From NCBI GenBank assembly GCA_964016985.1, contig OZ024823.1:109232476-109296475 (forward strand): a DNA stretch of 64,000 nt, written 5' to 3'. Under the pieces are notes generated by a model. The model made no database searches, had not been told where the DNA came from, and saw nothing but the letters and a program-made list of their open reading frames with translations. This document shows, in pieces, positions 12,501 through 55,500 of this stretch. Each line of letters starts with the position of its first letter. The stretch's first letter is position 1. This stretch comes from Anodontia alba. Lineage: Eukaryota; Mollusca; Bivalvia; Lucinida; Lucinidae. The translations under genes were made by a program, and so were the position numbers.

Positions 12501-15500
12501 TGATTAGCACTTCAAGGGTTAATAGACTTACATGGTTAACAGCATCGGGATAACCTTGAGGCATAAAGAGGAGTCCCCCAGACTGTTGGTATACTGCGTT
12601 GTCTTTACATGCCATTCCCTTCAGTAATACATCAAGATAGTAGCCACTGTAATTCACCACCACTGGTTCTGTGGTGTGGACCTCCATGTACCGTCCTGAT
12701 GCTGGATGCTCGACTCTATAATGTGCAGTAAAAATGTCACTGCTCAAACATGGATGGTTTCATCACTAAAACATGCCTTTATAATTTTGACCCCCTTAAA
12801 ACCCTTTTTTATATCGTAAAACTGGGGTTTACAGGGGTATACATTTTCTTCTTTCTGCTCAAAAACATAGATTGTGGGTACTCATTAGAACCACCTCATT
12901 GGGGTGGTTGTAATGAGTACCCACAATCTATGTTTTGAGCAGAAATGTGAGCAGTATCAGATTTTTTTATTTGAAAATTTTCATTTTTTTGGTGGTAAAA
13001 TTTTCGGTATATTTGAATAGGCATGTTTTTGTAATGGTTTACCATGGCTGATTCGAACTCTAGGAAATTCTTCTGATAGCTCAAGGAAACAAACATTTAG
13101 GGATATTTTAGGGAAATTCTTATTTTATCATGAAAACATATGTTTTGTGCACTCATTATAATTGCCTCACTGAAGTGATTCTAATGAGTACACTCAACAT
13201 ACCATTATATTACTGAAGACATTTGCCTCTTACTCTGGCACTATGATTGACCCTCAGTGGCTCGAACTACCCATGTCTAGAACAAATTTCCGTGCATTGC
13301 AATGGTCCCAAAGATTTTTTAGTCATTGAAGTCCAACTGAATCCAGAGCTTGTTATTCAAATGGTCAGTATTCATAGCTCTAGATAATGAGAGCTATCCA
13401 GGTAAATGTTTTTTTTTCTTATTTCTCCAAAGAAACATATCGAGGGTTGAGCGCAAGACTATGGTAACTCAAACATATTTTTGAAACCCTTGTTTAGGGG
13501 CAACTTGGACCCCTTTGTAAACAATGCAAATTTAGGTGCCATTGCTCATACGAGCAATGGCACCTAAATTTTCATTGTTTACAGAAAGAAATGTTGTAAT
13601 CTTCATAACGCCTTAATGGTGAGGAGATTAGGTTTGGGGAAAAACAACCATCTGACTTACGATAGTCTTGCGCTCAACCCTCGATATACCATAAAATGCA
13701 TCATAGCAGCATATTATGCAGTGAACAAGAATCCTAACCCTATTTTCCTTTTTAACAGAATTATGTCCCTTTGTAAATTTTTATATTCAATTTGTGTCCA
13801 TCCTATAACTTTAAAGCCTTCCAAGATATTCTCTCAAAACCTTACTCCGGCCATGGCCTGATGATTTAGAGTGCTGACTCTTCTCAACAATGGTTGAAAT
13901 CTTGCTTGGCTGGGTTGCATATGAGGAAGCCAAGTTTTGCTGGCTGGTGATCACGAATGTTTTCTGTCTGTTTTTAGCCATTTATCTGATTGTCTTGGCT
14001 CAAATTAAGCAAAATGTTCTTGAAAGGGCAATAAAATCCAAATCAAACTTGTTTGAGACAAAAAGCATCACCAAATGATGTAAAGAGAACAAGAGCAACT
14101 CTTTATTTTATTGTGCAGAGGGCAAGAGCCATAACTCTTCTATTACTCTTAATGAAATGATGCCCCATGTGAATTTTAATATGGAATTTGTGCTGACTAC
14201 ATTTTCACTAAACTTGGTGGAAATATGAAGCATCATCAGAAATATACCATAACAATTTCAAGCTTCAGTATGTTTACATATACTTTGTAAGCATAAAACA
14301 TGAGCAGACAACATGAAACAAGTAAAACATTAACATCACGTAAACATGCCTATATAATTTTGAGTTTTTGACCTCCTTAAACTCTACTTTTCTATAGTAA
14401 AACTGGGGTTTACAGAGGTATAAATTATTTTTCTTATTTCTGCTCAAAAACATAGATTGTGGGTACTCATTAGAACTGCCTCAGCAAGGCAGTTCTAACA
14501 AGTACCCACAATCTATGTTTTGAGCAGAAATGTAATAAATTTCAGAATTTTTAACTGAAAACTTTCAATTTTTGGTGGTGAAATTTTCAATATATTTGAG
14601 TAGGCCTGTTTTTGTAATGAAGTTCATAAAGTTGGGAGGCAAATACATTTATGTGTGACTAGACAGTTGTGGAGGCTGTGGAGCAGGAATACAGTGTGGG
14701 GATGGAGGTACATCTGCCAAGGATGTGGGGATGGTGGAACATCTGTTTTTGTTCCAAAAACAAGCTTAGTTCCAATGGATTTTGAAAGTGTTTGGTCACT
14801 AATCTGGAATTGTAATATTGTTGTTTTCTATCCAATCTTATTTAGCCTACCTGGCAGCAAGTTTCTTTTCACCAGGTTTTCCAGGCAGTACATTGGCACT
14901 ATGCAAACCATCACCTCTAGGCATTTTGTCTAGAATATCCGCAAGTAAAACTGGTTTACGCAGGTCAGATATTGTACCATCTAAACTTTGGATTACACCT
15001 GATATAGAGATGAATGATCAGTGTCACAAGAAATTCTCGGACTTGACATTGCTGGAAATCTTATGACGGTTGATCCCGTATTTAAAGCAATCAAGCACAG
15101 TATGGTTTGAAAGTGAGAGTTTGTACTGTAATCTTCAACCTTTAGTCTCTTGGAGGTACACAAATGGGCCATGTCAAGTGAAAAAGAACCTTTGAACATG
15201 CACAAAATGTGCAGTTTCAGATCATCTTGCGCATGGCTCAAAGTATCATATGGGCCTATGTTCTGCATTCATACATTCTGTAGTATCCAATGATTCTGTT
15301 AGCAGACAGTGAAAGCCTTGGTCAGATTGCATGGATGCCCAGGCTGATCTTGGCCTTAGCTGTCTGCATATGCCCAAAGACATGTTTTTGCATGGCGTGG
15401 CCCAAATTAGCATATATATATAGTTTCAGATAAAATGAATATTTAGTCAATATTTTTTTGTTATTTTTGGATCAAAAAATATATTGTAGGTACTCATTGA

Positions 15501-18500
15501 AACTGCCTCATTGAGGCAATTCCAATGAGTACCCACAAGATATGTTATGGTTCAAACAAATAAAAAGAGAATTGTCCAAAAAGTTCCATTATCTAGAGCT
15601 ATGACTATATTAATGCATTATTTGCTATTTGTTATCTGCAGCAGGCTAAGGTCATTGTGCTATCCTTGGTTACAGATGGACAGCATCAACAAAAAGGGGT
15701 CCTTGGCATACATCAGAACAGCAAAGTCCCAGATCAGCCTCAGCATCCAGACAGTCTGATCAGGGTTAACAGATTCTGCAGTACCTTCGGGACAGTACCA
15801 TAATAACTTGCATCCCATTCTACCATAGTTCCTCTAAAACATTTAAACCACACTGATTTTATTTCAACCCTTGTCATGCTGAACCCGGATATATCCTGCC
15901 TTTGCAAACAGTGTAGATCCAGATCAGTTGGCTTCTGAAGAAGCCAACTGATCTGGATCTGCACTGTTTACTATTAAGTATGTTAATTTATAGCGACAAT
16001 CCAGATCAAGCAATCTGATTGGCTGAAAATTAGAAGTAGGTGTGGCATCGTATTGTATTCAGCAGGACAAGGGTTAAGTTTATATGTTACACATTACTGG
16101 CTAAGTGTCAAACAGTGTAGACCCAGATCAGATTGCTCCTAAGGAGTAGTCTGATCTGAGTATACTGTCTACTAAAGGGTTCTGTCACAGTACTTAAGTT
16201 ATTACAAGAAATGCCCTGATCAGACTGTGCAGATATGTTGTTTTCAGTGTTTTCCTATGCAACAAGGTCCATGAACATGTATGGCTTTCATGTATACCGG
16301 TATGTAATGTGGACGCTGAATTGTGTACCTTGCTACAAGTTTCTTTTCTCTCTGCTTGCCTGGCAGTATATAAGCATGACACAGGCCGTCTTCTCTTGGC
16401 AATTTGTCTAAGATATCATCTAGCAGAGTTGGACCTCGAAGATCCAGTATTGAACCCTCTAAGCTTTTGATCTCTCCTGACAGAAAACATGCTAGTAATT
16501 TAGTTGTCTCCTTAGTCATAGACCTTTCACACTTTCCATGCTATGGGCAGGCTCAGCAGATGACATTGTGAAATATTTTTTCTTATTTTTCCAAGAAAAT
16601 AGGATTTAACACTTCATGCAAATTGTCCCCTATGGAGACAATTTGCATGAAGTGTCAAATCCTATTTTCTACGAAAAATAAAAAAATATTTCAAAATGTT
16701 GTCTGCTGAAATTTTTACCCAGCATTCAAAGTGTTAACCCTTCTCTTGCTGAACTCAACATGCCCTGTCTTAGTAAACAGTGTAGATCCAGATCAGTTGG
16801 CTTCTGAAGAAGCCAACTGATCTGGATCTGCATTGTTTGTCATCAAATATGTGAATTTCTATCAAAAACCTGGATCAAGTAATCTGATTGGCTGGAAATT
16901 AGAAGTGGGCGTGGCATCTTAATTTATTCAGCAAGGCAAGGGTTAAAAGTCTCTACAGTCTGATTCAGAGTTGTCATTTACACAAGCTAGTTACTGTATC
17001 TATCATAGATCCAGATAAGGTGCTTTTTTCAACCAAACATTGTTGATACTTTTCTTATTTCTCCATGAAAATATTATGTTGTGAGTACTCATTAGAAGCG
17101 TGTCGGCAAGGCACTTCTAATGAGTACCCACAACATATGTTTTCATGGAGAAATAAGAAAAATAATGTCCTGATACCTCTTCTTATCTGGAGCTATAATC
17201 TACATTTAAAAAAAATTGTTATCTGTATTTCTTTTCTGTATCCTCTAACTAATCAATTATTTTTAAGTATGTCACAGTCCACATATGAAGTCAGCAGGCT
17301 TGCCTGACATTTTTTAAAAATAACAAAAATAGTATCCACTGCAGCATTAAAAATACTACCTAAAATAGTTTGGTGATTTTCTAAATATTGCCAGAAATGT
17401 TTGCTGTTAATGTTATTATTTCATACTCATTTAAACTTAATTATAGTTATCTTAAATAGATATCAAATCAACAAAAGTTACACCATGGGTGTCTGACATT
17501 TCATCCAAGCCATAAATTGGCTGAAAATTTAGGCTAAAATCTCTAATGGTGCTTGTGGCGAGCATATAGCTTGCAGAGATGCCTTTTTAGAGGTTTAATG
17601 ACCTTTTAAACTATTTTATGGGTTCTAATTAAAACTCAGGGGCCAGTGGGTACATGAATGTAAGATTCTGGCCAAAACTTTATGTTTTATATGGATAGTC
17701 TAGTAATGTCACCTTTTTGCCATTAGTAAACAACCTGTTTGGATGGAAGTAATCCTGTAATGTGACCAAGTGATATAACATTAAGTATAATATGAACCAG
17801 GGCGCAGCATTTCCTACAAAACTGCATATGCATCCAGTAAAGACTCGGATCTGCATCTGTACAGGAAGATCTGAATCTTTGCTGACCACTTGAAGATGCT
17901 TTGAATCTTTGGCTACCCACAGAGTGCTCTGCAAAGATACTGATCAGACTGCACAGATGTGAAGGCTGATCTGCATCTTCACTAGGGCAGGATAAGCTTG
18001 TATGAAAAGCTGTGACCTGGCTCATATGATCTTTATGTAATGGCATCATGGTACTGTCGGATGCAATGTTTATGTAACTGTATAAAATGACAGATGACCC
18101 AATGGGCACAGAACATTAAAATGACGTCGTATCAACGTCGATGCGACATGATCACGTCGCATCGACGTTGATATGACGTCATTTTTATGTTGTGTGCCTG
18201 CTGGGGAGTCATGAGAACCTGGGTTTACAGGGCATAATTAATTCTTCAAATAATAAAGACCTAGGTCACTTTACACCCCATACACTCCATGCACCTGATC
18301 GGGCCTTTGTTGTCTGCTAACACTATCATTGGATACTGTATTATCTTTGGATGAATAAAAAAGACCTTGATCATACTGCTAAAAAATGCAGGCTGATTAA
18401 GGCATTGTCGTTTGCAGGTCCCAAATTCCTATTTTCATGGGGTCACCCAAACAGTGGACTTGAGCCATAAGGAAAGGTGTGAGTGAGAACAGGACATATA

Positions 18501-21500: not shown

Positions 21501-24500
21501 ATAACAGATTCACTTGTGAAATGTGTTTGTTCAATTTATTTTTTCCTCAATTCTGCAAATCTGATATGTTGAGGTACAGATTTCTCGAAGTATTTCAGAG
21601 AGTCGCTTTGACTTTGAGATAACGAGAGTCGATTGTATAATAGTATTGCCATGTTATAATGCCATTCACATATAGCACTATTCCATTCCATATACCCCCG
21701 TCGTAGTGTTATAAGAGAATGTCCTGTACTATCACATTTTTTTTTGGTCACATGCATCATATTTTTTGTTTACCATTTTGGTGTATCACTATAGTAAGAG
21801 TTTACCTGTAGGTATAAATTTATCATTGATGTCTAACATCTCTCCAGCTGTCACTCTTACTACATGGTCTCGAATATTGCCAGCGGACTAAAGGAAAACA
21901 AAAAATGCAAGACTGTTACTACATGAATTTATAGTTAAGTTTAGTCTTTTGGTTAAGTGTAAGTCTAAGTTTAGTCTACTGAAATTCAATATTAGCAGAC
22001 ATGTTTTTCTTAATATTTCCTTGAAAATACAGCTTTTTAGATTATTAATTCTGTAGTTGTAAAAATAAGAGTAAAATCAACTTTGGTATAAAGTCAATAT
22101 TGCTCACAGGGGTTTCAAACGGAATTTTGAGTAACGAACAACAAACAATATGTTTTATGTTTAAAGGGAGCTATTTTATACATATGTAGAGGATCTTGCA
22201 CAAGTGGTCATTTCATATGAAATTTATGAAACGAGCCTGTGGCAAGTTTCATAAATTTCATATGAAATGACCACAACCTTACATGCCCATTACGAAAACA
22301 CGCCTATTCAAATATATTGAAAATTTCACAACCAAAAAATGAAAATTTTCAGATAAAAACAGTGATTTATTACTAACAAGTCACTGCTAGAGCTGATTTA
22401 TTTCTTAAATAACAGCGACGTCATATGATAAATAGTCTAAATTCATACTGAATAGTGGATATCCATAAATTAGTTCCTATGAAATTTCATCATTCTCAGT
22501 CTTTTTTTATACTTCTTTTTACAAGCACAGTTTTGCACTTGACCATCATTAGGCCATGTTTATTAGGTGCATTGTTTATTAATACTGAAGCCATAAGGTT
22601 AGACTGTTTATGTTAAGTGATTCCCGTTAAAATTAACCACTTGTTATTCTTAGATCTAGTATTATATTATGATCATTATTATTTTCTTCCTCCATCCATC
22701 CAGCCAGCCATACATCCATCCATGAGCCACATATCCATTACTTACATGTCCAGCTAAGTTAAACAAGAAATGATTAGATAAGTCAATAGGTGTTGATTTA
22801 CTGGTGGTTGCTTGATAATCCATCATCAGTCCATTCTCTGATGTTAACTCATACGTCACTGTTGTAGTGACATCACCAGGAAATCCCTCTGTACCATCTT
22901 TATCAACATATGTAAGAATCAATTTTGTTCCATTTATACTCCAGTCAAAATATCGCTGAAATGTACGTATACGTACATATTTATCATGGTTATGAAATAT
23001 GAGGCAAGAATATATTCATTTTTTTCTAAATACGGTTACTGTTACAAATTCCCGGCGGGCACATGACGTTTAACAATGTCGCATACATGTTCCCGCTACA
23101 AAGTAATATAAAAAGGGAATCCTTTGGAAAAACAGAATAAAACTAAAAATAAAAATTAGCAGACTCAGCTTGACTGATTGTACCCATAAGCGATAATTAA
23201 AAAAAACAAAAACAAAAAAAAAACAAAAAAACACACACTCTTACTCCTGCCAGCAATGCGTTAAGCGGTACTATATTTTCACACTCTTTTGTTGCAAAAT
23301 TTTACAGCAGAAATTGTAGAAGTACAAGTGATTTCTGAATTCTGGTACGATATAATTCTCTGGGACAGCTAGAGAAAAATCCTAGGCATTTTTTAAATTA
23401 GCTACATCAAGCAAGATGGATCTACACTGTTTGCTAGGACAGCTAGGGCATGTGGTGTTTAGCAAGAGAAGGGTTAAATTGACTGGATTAACTTCTGAGT
23501 GTGTACATGAAGTTTCTGCATGTAAATTTCTGTTACTACAAACACAGTATTGTAAGTGTTGAACTTCATTCTAAGACAGGAAAACGTTCTCTTCGGGGCA
23601 AAGTTCATTGAGCTGAAGATAAGAGGTTTCGCCGTCAGCTTATAGGATCATTGGATATAGTGGCATATATCAAAGTACAGAAAAATTCCGCTATTAAGAC
23701 CACTCGAAAATAAGACCACTCCGCTATCAAGACCAACTTTTGCCAGTCCCAAATGGATTTTTTTTTTTTTTTTTTTTTTTGTATTCTACATAACTCCAGA
23801 TAAGAGGGGATATCCGCATAACATTTTTCTTATTTTGCCACAAAAATATGTTGTGGGTACTCATCAGAAGCACCTGTGGAGGAATAAGAAAAATATTAGT
23901 ACTTTTCGGCCGGAAAAAGCACCTTATCTGGAGCTATGGTCTACATTCAATATTCAGACCGCCCTACTAAGAAGATCACAGGCAGTGCCAAAGGTGGTCT
24001 TTAATAGAGGAATTTTACTGTATAGCAAAGGTCCTTGTCGAATTATGCAGCTTCCCTGGCTAACTGGTCCTTCAATCTTCTTACATAATATGTGGCTTGT
24101 AGATACAGGTCCATATGGCGCGTTTAAAACATGTATTATTCCCAGCAGGCACATGACGTTAATACAACGTCGGTTCAACGTCGATTCAACGTCATGACGT
24201 TGCATCGACGTTGAACCGATGTTGTATAAACGTCATGTGCCCGCTGGGTTGTTAGTCTGTCATGAAAACGTACTTGCTTTACAGTCAGATACATTTCTCC
24301 ATAGATTCATGCATTAGCGTGGACAAATTATTTCAGTGAATTTTTATGCTATAGTTTTTATTAAATTAGGTTTGTTTGGGTTTTTTTTTTCTTAATGAAT
24401 GAGCTTTACCATGAGAAAATGTGTCATAGCGGCTTATGCGAAAAGTGAAGGTGCAGATGATCAGCCAGCCAATTTATTCATCTCATAAAACCCTTTTTTA

Positions 24501-26259
24501 TACAGCGATATATATATTCTGCATTATTTTTCAATAATCGACCTATATATGCTATCCGCACATGCACCAAAGTCCTCTTTAACCCTTGGCGCAGCTAAGT
24601 CACCCATCAAGCATTCTTTATAAATCTATAGCGGGCCATTATCGGCCCGTCAGGGTAGCTGACGGGCCGATAACGGCCCGCTATAGATTTATAAAGAATA
24701 CTAGCTGGGTACTTATGAATAAACTAGTTTTAGGTTATGAGGATGTTTCTTACCCTGGAGAAGCCTGTAAACCCGCCGTGACACATGTTATTGCCCAAGG
24801 GATCGTTCTTTGACACATTGTACCTTGTTCCGTCAAGTTCAAAAGTGGCCCCGTCAATTCTGTTAGCTACTCTACCACATATACAGCCCAGGAAGCCTGG
24901 GTTAGCTTCATAATCTGTAACAAACAATAAATAGAAGTAATGCTGGGACAATATTCGCACAGAAAAGATCTTGATCTTGACCAGTCCGTGCAGTCTGGAA
25001 AGACTTGTTTTACAACTTAAATGTTTTTAAGTAAAATTTTTTTTCAAAAAGATGCTGTGGCTGAAACACGAGGATAAACGCTTTGTGCAAATTGACTCCT
25101 CCGTCAGAAGGCTATAACAACGCCCATGCGTAAATCCTTAGACAAACAATATCGTGATACCTGTATTTGTCAATGAAAAATGCATCTGTACCTGTATTTG
25201 TCAATGAAAAAGTACATAGGTAATATTGTTTGTCTAAGCAATAACATTAACCGTTGACTGGTAAGCTATTTTGGTTGGTCAGGTTTGGTGTCATTTACTG
25301 GTCAGGTGATTTCACGGAGGACTCAGGATGCCATGCAATGGGCTGCGACATGATAAAACCTAGCGGCCTCGTATACAACGTCGCATCAACGTCGTGGTGG
25401 ATAGAGAAAGATTCTGCGTTTCTTCACGCGGGCAGCAAAGATTGACCAGATTGTGCGAATACGCAAACTGATCTAAGTCTTCGCTGGACACTTGACATAT
25501 GGTACATTTTCTCATGTTGCGGTACAATACTTATCATAATCTGCCACACGCGATTCTAACCCAAGACCTGTAGAATAAGAAGAAGAAGAAGAAGAGAGAG
25601 AGAGAACAGAGATGATAGCGGAGTGGCACTGCGTTGCCGTAAATTGGGGCATTTGAACAACAATGATCAGTCCCTCCCATTCGCATGGCCTTCTCATTTA
25701 TTATTGACCCGCGTCTATAGCTGTAGGCCTATCTTGTATCATGGTCGAAATGGTACCTATCACCCTGCGCATTCTCACAGTTTCACCAGGTCCTACATGG
25801 CATCGATATATCATATAGTATCCAATGATTCTGCAAGCTGACAACAAAGGTCCAGATCAGACTGGGCGAACGCCCAGTCTGATCTGGCCTTTGTTGTCAG
25901 CAGATGTTCGAAGATATGTTTTCGCCTAACATAAAACAAGTTCTTACCCTTTACATCCTTGTAACCCAGGTTGACGTCCACGATTTTCCCATCTTTGTCA
26001 GGAACCAAAATGTCTCTGACAGCGCAACCAATGTTGATCACTCGCACTTTTACATCGCCGGCTTGAAGTGTAAAACTACAATAAATAAATAAAAATAAAC
26101 AAATAAATGAATAATATAAAAATAAATAAAAGTAATAAAATAAATAAATAAATAAAAAGCGAATTAGTAAAATAAGTAAATGTAAATAAAGATTTGAAAA
26201 AGTCGGTTATTTGTTTGTTTAATGATATTAAACTCCTGTGGGTCGGCGTTCTGTGTCGT

Positions 26260-52526: not shown

Positions 52527-55500
52527 TTTTTTAATTTTATATGATGTGAAGATTTCGTGTTGTTTGCACATGTGTAAAATTTGATATTTTACACTAATAC
52601 ACATTTGTGACTGTTACGTATACGGATAACTGTCACGTGTTCGTATGTGTGATATATGCACACTAACAAAGTTTGCTTTGGTTTTGTATATTTATTCGAG
52701 TATTTATAAGCATCACAATGTGTAAGGCTAATATGTTTGAATGCATACTTTAGCGTTATCAACTTTGGCAGGGAACTATTTGTTAGGTAGTTATTAGGTT
52801 GGTAGTAACGGGAAAACGGGTTGTTAAAATGTGGTATGTTACATCTGGTGGCGGTTTATCAACCGCCCCCAAAATAAAACAACAAAATGGGGGACGCCGA
52901 ACTCAACGCAAGAGTGACTGCAGTAGCTCTTTTTAGGGCTATGTAAGGCATTCCATGTTACTAAGCATGGTAAATTAGGAAAACAATAAACAACAACAAG
53001 AACGATGACTACGACGACAAAAACAACAACAATGCGTAAGTTAATGCACTGTGTACCATATCTCACGTCTACTTCTATTTTTTTTCCTGAGGTGTTAATA
53101 ACCTAAATCACGGTAGCGTGTTACCTTACCATTCTTCCTGAAAGTGTTCTGTTCAAGCGTAAATATGTACCGTATGTACCTTAAATACTTGGACACCTTA
53201 ACCCTTGTCATGCTGAATAAATTAAGATGCCACGCCCAGTTCTAATTGTCAGCCAATCAGATTTCTTGACCCAATTTACCTTCTTGATGACAGACAGTGC
53301 AGATCTAGATCAGCTGGCTTCTGAAGAAGTCAACTGATCTGGATCTGCACTGTTTGCTAAGACAGGACATGTCGTGTTTAGCAAGAGAAAGGTTAACACA
53401 GTCATAAATGAACTAATCCATTTTACTAAATGTTGATGTGTCAAAACATCTGCAAGCAAGCTTTGTATTTATTTATTTTTCTGATGGCATCGTTGGCGGT
53501 ATAAACGAACCTTGCTCACCATCGCTAGTTTCTTTCTAGGTGAATTGGTACATGTTGGTACGACATGCATGGACTTCCGTAATCCAAGATTACTTCCGGG
53601 TCGTGTGTTGGAAATAATGGCCGGTGGACAGGCCTTCCACCATGGTTTCTGTGTTGGAGAAAGGGGAGAAAAGAAGCTGATGGCTAAGTGAGTACCCTTC
53701 CCTCAAGTGTTCTGACAGAGAGGCCTTAGAAAACATTGTAAACCTTGATCAGACACCGCGGAATTCGACGTCTGATCAGAGTCTGCACTGTTTGCCATTC
53801 AGCTACCAATATTTTAGATGCTTCTCTGATAGATATATAACAATTCTAGTTGTCTATCCATGACATCGTGTATTGGTCTGGTCTGGGCTATAATCCTTAA
53901 TAATTATGAATACTTTCAAAATATTTATAATTCGTCTTCCTTTCAGTGCAATATCTGAACACGATATGATACGCACTTTGTTGAGACTTACTATTATCCT
54001 GTGAGTTTTCTTTTTCTGTAGCAGATCACAAGACAGCATAATAAATCTGGCTGCGCGCTTTTGCACTTACCGGTTCTTCCTAACTACACCTTGGGGTCCC
54101 AAACCTAACAGCCTTATTCGTGGACTGGACTATTCTATTTGTTATCAGATGCACGACTACTATGTCAACAGTCTTGGTAGTTACTTCCGCTCAAGCTGGG
54201 TCTGGTATAATTCCTGTATTTGATATGTGATTTTGTTTGTATTGCAGTTTTACGGCCCAGTCAAACCATTGGGTTCATGTCGAGCGTTATACTGTGTAGG
54301 CTAAGGTCTCTAAGCGGTTAACCAGTATTATGCACATTCTTACGCCAGAAACTGACAACTGCCCTTCTTGAATCAGCGGAAGGGAGAGAATGACCGTAGA
54401 AAATATTTCATGATCAATCTCAACGAAAGAATGTTGCCGATCCGGCGGGGGTCTCCTGATCACCAGTTGGACGCGCATCCAACTGAAGCAGGCATGATGT
54501 GTGGTTAGCATAACTCCTATATAAGCGGCTCGCCAGGTCGACCCGCAAAAACGAATTCGTGCTGTCGCACGCGTTATTTATCGGATTGGCAACCCTCTCG
54601 GGAAATACTTCCTATATTTTAACACTTAGCACTTTGGCTAAATTTTTTAGCAGACGACACTTTTCTTATTCCCCTCCACCACCCTAAAAAAAAAACAAAA
54701 AAAAAAAAACAAAAAAGAAACAGGATATGGATTTGGCATTTCACACAAATTGTCTCCAATCCAATGGATTGAAATGCCGAATCCTGTTTTCTGGGAAAAA
54801 TAAGAAAAGTATTTCAAAATGACGTCTGCTGAAAATTTTACCCAGAATACTATGCGTTAAACTGAATTTGCATTAACTCCATACATTCTGAAATATTAAC
54901 AAGAACCTGTCAGCGAGAATCACACGAAGTTATAGTCAATATGCCGCACACAACAGATGAGTAATATGTCTCGCTAAAAGAACGGTTAATGCGGCCTAGC
55001 TCTCTGGGTAAAATTTTCAGTAGACGACAAATTGGTGATATTTTTCTTATTTTTCTTACTATTGTCTATTGTTTGCATGAAATTCAAATCCTGTTTAACA
55101 ATTTGCCTGAAATGTCATATAAAAAAATAGAAAAATACGCACATGACGTTTATATAACGTCACATGAACGACGTTGCATCGATGTTAATGTGACGTTATA
55201 TGAACGTCATGGCGTTGTATCGACGTTAATGTGGCATTGCATAGAACGTCATGACATTGAATCGACGTTAATGAGACGTTGTATAAATGTCATGTGCCCG
55301 CTGGGTATTGTGTTTGCTGGATACAGCAACAACCTTAACCCTTGTCCTGCTGAATAAATTAAGAAGCCACACCCTTTTCAAATTTTCAGCCAATCAGATT
55401 ACTTGATCCAGATAGTTGATATAAATTCATATATTGAATGGCTAACAGCGTAGATCCAGATCAGTTGGCTTCTTCAAAAGCCAACTGATCTGGACTTACA

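Follow-up and report, generated by a model that had tools for sequence, protein, structure and literature searches.

A tandem pair of exons 6, predicted to be used in a mutually exclusive manner, in a mutarotase-like gene of the bivalve Anodontia alba

Two copies of exon 6 in a mutarotase-like gene

The window analyzed here, a stretch of 64,000 nucleotides from the lucinid bivalve Anodontia alba (contig OZ024823.1, forward-strand positions 109,232,476 to 109,296,475), carries on its minus strand a mutarotase-like gene (window positions 28224-9420) in which exon 6 is present twice, the order of the exons being 1, 2, 3, 4, 5, 6A, 6B, 7, 8 (Table 1). The exons were set by translation and splice sites, and all 8 introns are of the GT-AG type. 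Spliced models containing either 6A alone or 6B alone each encode a protein of 350 residues. The profile of the aldose 1-epimerase family (PF01263) recognizes these two forms with 228 bits (6A) and 221 bits (6B) at a curated cut-off of 27, and the protein aligns to human GALM across residues 1-348. The closest named database proteins are those of the clams Mya, Mactra and Ruditapes. A further relative, P0001, is a transcript-like protein of 350 residues that comes from a contig of 1520 nt and shows 85% overall identity to the product of the minus-strand gene.

Both exons 6 measure 148 nt (3 x 49 + 1), have identical entry and exit phases and contain no stop codons. The acceptor is CAG for both copies, and the donors are AAG/GTACAC (6A) and CAG/GTAGGC (6B). 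The encoded peptides are identical at 33 of 50 residues and the exons at 99 of 148 nucleotides. The sequence-only reading of this locus had described precisely such a tandem, stop-free pair with AG acceptors, GT donors and equal phases, and every detail that was checked was borne out. Thus, the existence of the exon pair is confirmed.

On both strands of the window, 384 stretches of 148 nt are bounded by AG and GT, and 30 of these are open in the phase of exon 6. When scored against 6A (self score 256), 6B reaches 155 and the exon 6 of a paralogous gene on the plus strand of the window reaches 50, while the other 27 open stretches score -20 or lower. Searches of the whole genome (1,862,613,979 bases, only the best candidates being scored) with either exon 6 peptide gave matches with E values of at most 1e-10 at these two places only; beyond them, one search returned a single match at E 9.3 and the other returned none. 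The window itself lies on one 143-Mb sequence. It is therefore extremely unlikely that the pair stems from an assembly error or from a piece of another gene, as the copies share this one sequence and differ at 49 of 148 nucleotides, no other exon of the minus-strand gene is duplicated in the regions searched, and the genome searches revealed no third copy of the exon.

Table 1. Exons of the minus-strand mutarotase-like gene, the intron separating the two exons 6 and the plus-strand comparison exon (window coordinates)
Feature	Position	Strand	Length (nt)	Remarks
Exon 1 with start codon	28166..28224	-	59	MSEITKESFGVTEAGEPVY; donor GTAAGA; similar to P0001 residues 1-19
Exon 2	25948..26075	-	128	AG/GT bounds, mutarotase homology
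Exon 3	24754..24914	-	161	Equivalents of R82 and H107 kept
Exon 4	22746..22955	-	210	Equivalent of H176 kept
Exon 5	21806..21887	-	82	Last base is the first base of the codon finished by exon 6
Exon 6A	16329..16476	-	148	Cys in place of Asp243 (GLCHAYIL)
Intron between 6A and 6B	14999..16328	-	1330	GT-AG
Exon 6B	14851..14998	-	148	His in place of Asp243 (GLHSANVL)
Exon 7	12532..12715	-	184	Val in place of Gln279, Met in place of Glu307
Exon 8 with stop codon	9420..9500	-	81
Single exon 6 of the plus-strand paralog	53540..53687	+	148	Comparison exon

Apparent selective constraint on both copies

In the comparison of 6A with 6B by the method of Nei and Gojobori (NG86), the numbers of nonsynonymous (dN) and synonymous (dS) substitutions per site are 0.26 and 1.57, respectively, corresponding to a dN/dS ratio of about 0.16. 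The ratio of the proportions of nonsynonymous and synonymous differences (pN/pS) has a median of 0.33 with a bootstrap range of 0.19-0.56, and in none of 1000 replicates was pN equal to or larger than pS. The two copies agree at 36 first, 40 second and 25 third codon positions out of 50 each. In neutral simulations under three scenarios with 20,000 runs each, no run retained at least 33 identities together with an open frame, which argues against a long period of neutrality of either copy, a recent loss remaining compatible with this result.

When 1300 nt on each side of the exons were compared, the sole match linking 6A and 6B comprised the exon plus 3-4 nt per side. Everything else that matched was a repeat, the part in which the compared stretches trivially overlap, or a short hit at chance level. 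Thus, outside the repeats the introns have diverged past recognition, whereas the two exons have not. All 9 positions that are invariant among 7 relatives are kept in 6A as well as in 6B. Both exons 6 are therefore apparently held by purifying selection, and the view of the sequence-only reading that the copies are old and constrained agrees with these values. A faster evolution of exon 6 (15/50 differences between 6A and P0001 in exon 6, 38/300 elsewhere, p 0.004) was considered as a further sign of selection and is not relied on here; of six pairs for a control of the exon 6 rate, two were tested, with p 0.28 for P0002-P0003 and p 0.51 for P0004-P0006.

Age of the duplication

The exon 6 part of P0001 matches 6A at 35 and 6B at 30 of 50 residues. 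In maximum-likelihood trees, 6A and P0001 were grouped in 7 of 7 runs with bootstrap values of 81-88, and this favoured tree has path lengths of 0.30 to 6A and 0.32 to 6B. The alternative tree in which 6A and 6B are sisters is worse by 5.1-6.0 log units, with p values of 0.032-0.15 in the approximately unbiased (AU) test. The duplication is thus probably older than the split from the species of P0001. This is not decisive and the dating is tentative, because the tree is built on 50 residues.

Predicted splicing of the exon pair

Transcripts that contain both 6A and 6B or neither of them are shifted out of frame and run into early stops, located 298 nt (both included) or 122 nt (both skipped) upstream of the last exon junction. 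The frameshift of exon 7 upon double inclusion had been predicted by the sequence-only reading and is reproduced by the spliced model. A stop codon well upstream of the last exon junction marks an mRNA as a target for decay (50-nt rule), and both kinds of RNA would be cleared by nonsense-mediated decay. As decay targets, these forms would leave the protein output exclusive even from this alone. The pair also shows the three features by which Pillmann et al. define candidates for mutually exclusive exons in WebScipio (PMC3228551, available excerpt), i.e. a near-equal length with the same reading frame, compatible splice sites joined to the same neighbours and homologous peptides. Taken together, these properties make it likely that 6A and 6B are used in a mutually exclusive manner, one per transcript, giving rise to two forms of 350 residues.

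Alternatively, both exons might be cassettes without strict exclusivity, and double inclusion or skipping might be produced deliberately, lowering expression by decay. The positions of the early stops in the both-in and both-out forms are as in regulated unproductive splicing. However, the protein-level constraint on both copies is not explained by such cassettes, since one exon together with skipping would suffice, and we regard this alternative as very unlikely.

As to how a mutually exclusive choice between 6A and 6B would be made, steric blocking between the exons is unlikely given the gap of 1330 nt. The same holds for a mismatch between U2- and U12-type splice sites, as all introns are of the GT-AG type and no donor resembling the U12 consensus was seen by eye. 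The choice would thus probably be made by splicing regulators. The calculated pairing energy of the donor with U1 is -5.6 kcal/mol for 6A and -10.7 kcal/mol for 6B, and 6A with its weaker match may be the regulated exon.

A variant of exclusive use would have competing RNA hairpins, formed by flanking palindromes, loop out either 6A or 6B. Positions 16839-16771 upstream of 6A are complementary over 69 nt to positions 15973-15905 between the exons, and positions 15546-15472 between the exons are complementary over 75 nt to positions 14523-14449 downstream of 6B, so that either exon could be looped out. This would resemble the docking-site and selector splicing of the Dscam type, yet palindromes of this sort are frequent in the window: a strict scan of the 64 kb found 43 palindromic elements, and 66% of random stretches of 1330 nt contain one, so that their presence next to exons 6 is expected. 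Moreover, each palindrome also folds on itself, and the upstream and downstream elements could pair with each other and loop out both exons. Hairpin-based selection is considered unlikely. By their appearance the 43 palindromes are short hairpin elements resembling miniature inverted-repeat transposable elements (MITEs), situated in introns and between genes.

Several observations weigh against the use of both exons or against their great age. The use of the junctions is a prediction from the frame argument. The weak donor of 6A is ordinary within this gene, exons 4 and 7 having values of -5.0 kcal/mol. Residues seen in none of the 7 relatives amount to 6 of 50 in 6B and 3 of 50 in 6A. The dS value is close to saturation, and the pairwise test would also be compatible with one of the exons having decayed recently. 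As to age, a tree with 6A and 6B as sisters was rejected at the 0.05 level in one run (p 0.046) and in only one of the six others (p 0.032-0.15), and the alternative grouping of 6B with P0001, worse by 4.4-5.6 log units, was rejected in no run (p 0.16-0.31). Finally, a search of the protein database with the 6B region returned only P0001, whose exon is 6A-like. This outcome is nearly uninformative, because two isoforms with 95% identity merge in 90% clusters.

Another possibility is that only one exon 6 is spliced, and constitutively so, the other copy having been silenced recently and persisting as a relic. In favour of this, 6B has twice as many residues unseen in relatives, and only a 6A-like exon occurs in a database protein. 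On the other hand, 6B has an open frame, intact splice sites, the stronger donor and each of the 9 invariant positions, the favoured tree has nearly the same path length to either copy, and dN/dS is far below the neutral expectation across the whole history of the pair. A silenced relic is thus unlikely, and we favour the predicted either-or use of the two exons.

Loss of active-site residues

The residues R82, H107, H176, D243, Q279 and E307 of human GALM correspond to R, H, H, C/H, V and M in the two isoforms; the numbering is backed by the residue letters and by titles of Lactococcus mutants. D243 and E304, the counterpart of Glu307, were mutated in a structure series of the Lactococcus mutarotase, as stated in the titles. 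Human GALM and the Lactococcus enzyme belong to the same Pfam family as the clam protein. The equivalents of the active histidine pair and of the substrate-binding arginine are thus present here, and the catalytic base Glu as well as the substrate-binding Asp and Gln are without counterpart. The losses of Glu307 and Gln279 lie in the constant part of the protein (exon 7), and Asp243 is missing from 6A and 6B alike. Alignments to the structures 1ns0 and 1nsm consistently place the exchanged letters, the altered residues of these entries aligning with Met and Cys. An assignment of the catalytic Glu to the motif RPGD/RPGE in exon 8 was ruled out, since the numbered human chain has it in CLETQ, where the clam protein carries Met.

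The same losses are found in the closest relatives, among them the Mya and Mactra proteins. P0001 to P0006, P0008 and P0009 have C or H, V, I or F, and M at the positions of D243, Q279 and E307. P0010 is as P0009 except that H107 is absent from the model, and P0007 has H at position 243 and is blank at the positions of Q279 and E307, the model being truncated. In comparison, D, Q and E are all kept in the A. alba paralogs at 10.05 and 10.14 Mb (p10a, p10b) and at 91.2 Mb (p91) and in the bivalve mutarotase-like proteins P0025, P0061 and P0031; P0015 from Crassostrea has kept Q and E and lacks D. As Asp243, Gln279 and Glu307 are gone and the closest relatives share these losses, the product of the minus-strand gene is probably a pseudoenzyme that has lost catalysis.

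The sequence-only reading had located the substrate-binding Asp of GALM in exon 6 and had concluded that splicing would swap active-site chemistry. By alignment, exon 6 indeed spans the segment of this Asp; the residue itself occurs in neither GLCHAYIL nor GLHSANVL. With Asp243 lost in both versions and Gln279 and Glu307 lost in the constant exons, the proposed swap of chemistry calls for revision. The choice of the exon would more likely alter the pocket of a predicted non-catalytic protein.

Three observations on individual database entries may be added. P0011 and P0012 from Haliotis have Thr at the position of Asp243 and Met or Leu at that of Gln279 and have kept the catalytic Glu, possibly representing an intermediate state. 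P0007 from Ruditapes philippinarum is a model of 271 residues which ends just past the boundary of exon 6, its last residues looking intron-like by eye, and it perhaps represents a transcript mis-annotated or truncated at this same exon. P0005 from Mya arenaria lacks the three residues that define the active site, which puts its database label 'galactose mutarotase-like' in question.

The exchanged segment and its possible function

The AlphaFold model of P0001 has a mean predicted local distance difference test (pLDDT) score of 92.9 with 28 sequences and superimposes on human GALM (1snz) with a template modelling (TM) score of 0.94. In this model, exon 6 (from residue 214) forms a strand, a helix and two more strands, and the position of Asp243 (Cys246) is the first residue of the strand 246-250. 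The structural model is that of P0001, and the isoforms of the window are placed on the pocket by alignment. The exchanged 50 residues would contribute to the former sugar pocket, and the isoforms would then differ in their ligand or partner and not in a mutarotase reaction. As a tentative interpretation, a lineage of bivalve mutarotases may possibly have become a non-catalytic sensor of sugars (or of a partner), in which an either-or exon at the former substrate-Asp segment would switch the specificity of the pocket.

Comparison with known systems

Tandem exons used in an either-or fashion are well known, and 6A/6B adds to them a case in an unusual, mutarotase-like host gene. In the available excerpts of the respective sources, the human set of mutually exclusive exons comprises 236 events (PMC9741552), and non-exclusive exons sharing the criteria on the fly X chromosome amount to 0.56% (90/16180; PMC3228551). 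The pair 6A/6B resembles the exclusive exons derived from tandem duplications (PMC3228551, PMC9741552) in length, phase, splice type, homologous peptides and the exchange of an internal segment. It differs from them in that the residue at the position of Asp243 is not the same in the two copies and is Asp in neither, and in that the splicing is predicted only. As far as can be taken from the excerpt consulted, the tandem pair of KHK (ketohexokinase) likewise has an alternative exon adjoining the ligand site, again in a protein of sugar metabolism; here, unlike in KHK, the catalytic base is gone from the constant part. Mutarotase genes have also multiplied in Drosophila, which has five galactose mutarotase genes, and the available excerpt of that report (PMC11836677) mentions no alternative exon for them. 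According to the same excerpt, one third of the Drosophila paralogs of sugar enzymes are predicted pseudoenzymes, the inactive ones among the mutarotases being unspecified.

The sequence-only reading knew of no described alternative-exon system in the mutarotase family, and this agrees with the open literature searched, which leaves most subscription journals outside. One candidate (PMC9467314) combines galM with the term 'mutually exclusive exon'; in the accessible part of this paper, galM is merely a down-regulated gene and exclusive exons are a general class of events, and no such system is described. If used as predicted, 6A/6B would, as far as the literature searched extends, constitute the first report of an either-or exon from the mutarotase family, in a lineage that has lost the catalytic base. 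It would then represent a compact case of splicing that diversifies the pocket of a dead enzyme.

Paralogous genes

In each of five paralogous genes examined (the plus-strand gene of the window and those at 10.05, 10.14, 13.94 and 91.2 Mb), one exon 6 was found. For the plus-strand paralog, the sequence-only reading had noted a single exon 6, which holds as far as was searched, and this exon has the same length as 6A and 6B. The plus-strand gene (window positions 35417-60108) is arranged head-to-head with the minus-strand gene and has eight recognizable exons. With Met, His and Phe at the positions of Glu307, Asp243 and Gln279, respectively, its product is a second predicted pseudoenzyme. The mutarotase-like gene at C3:13931080-13969636 (L024-L026, L030-L032) has an altered H176 motif (INLTHNNAFNLAG) and a canonical GFDHTF segment; by eye, in comparison with p10a, it carries Lys at the position of Gln279 and Ala at that of Glu307.

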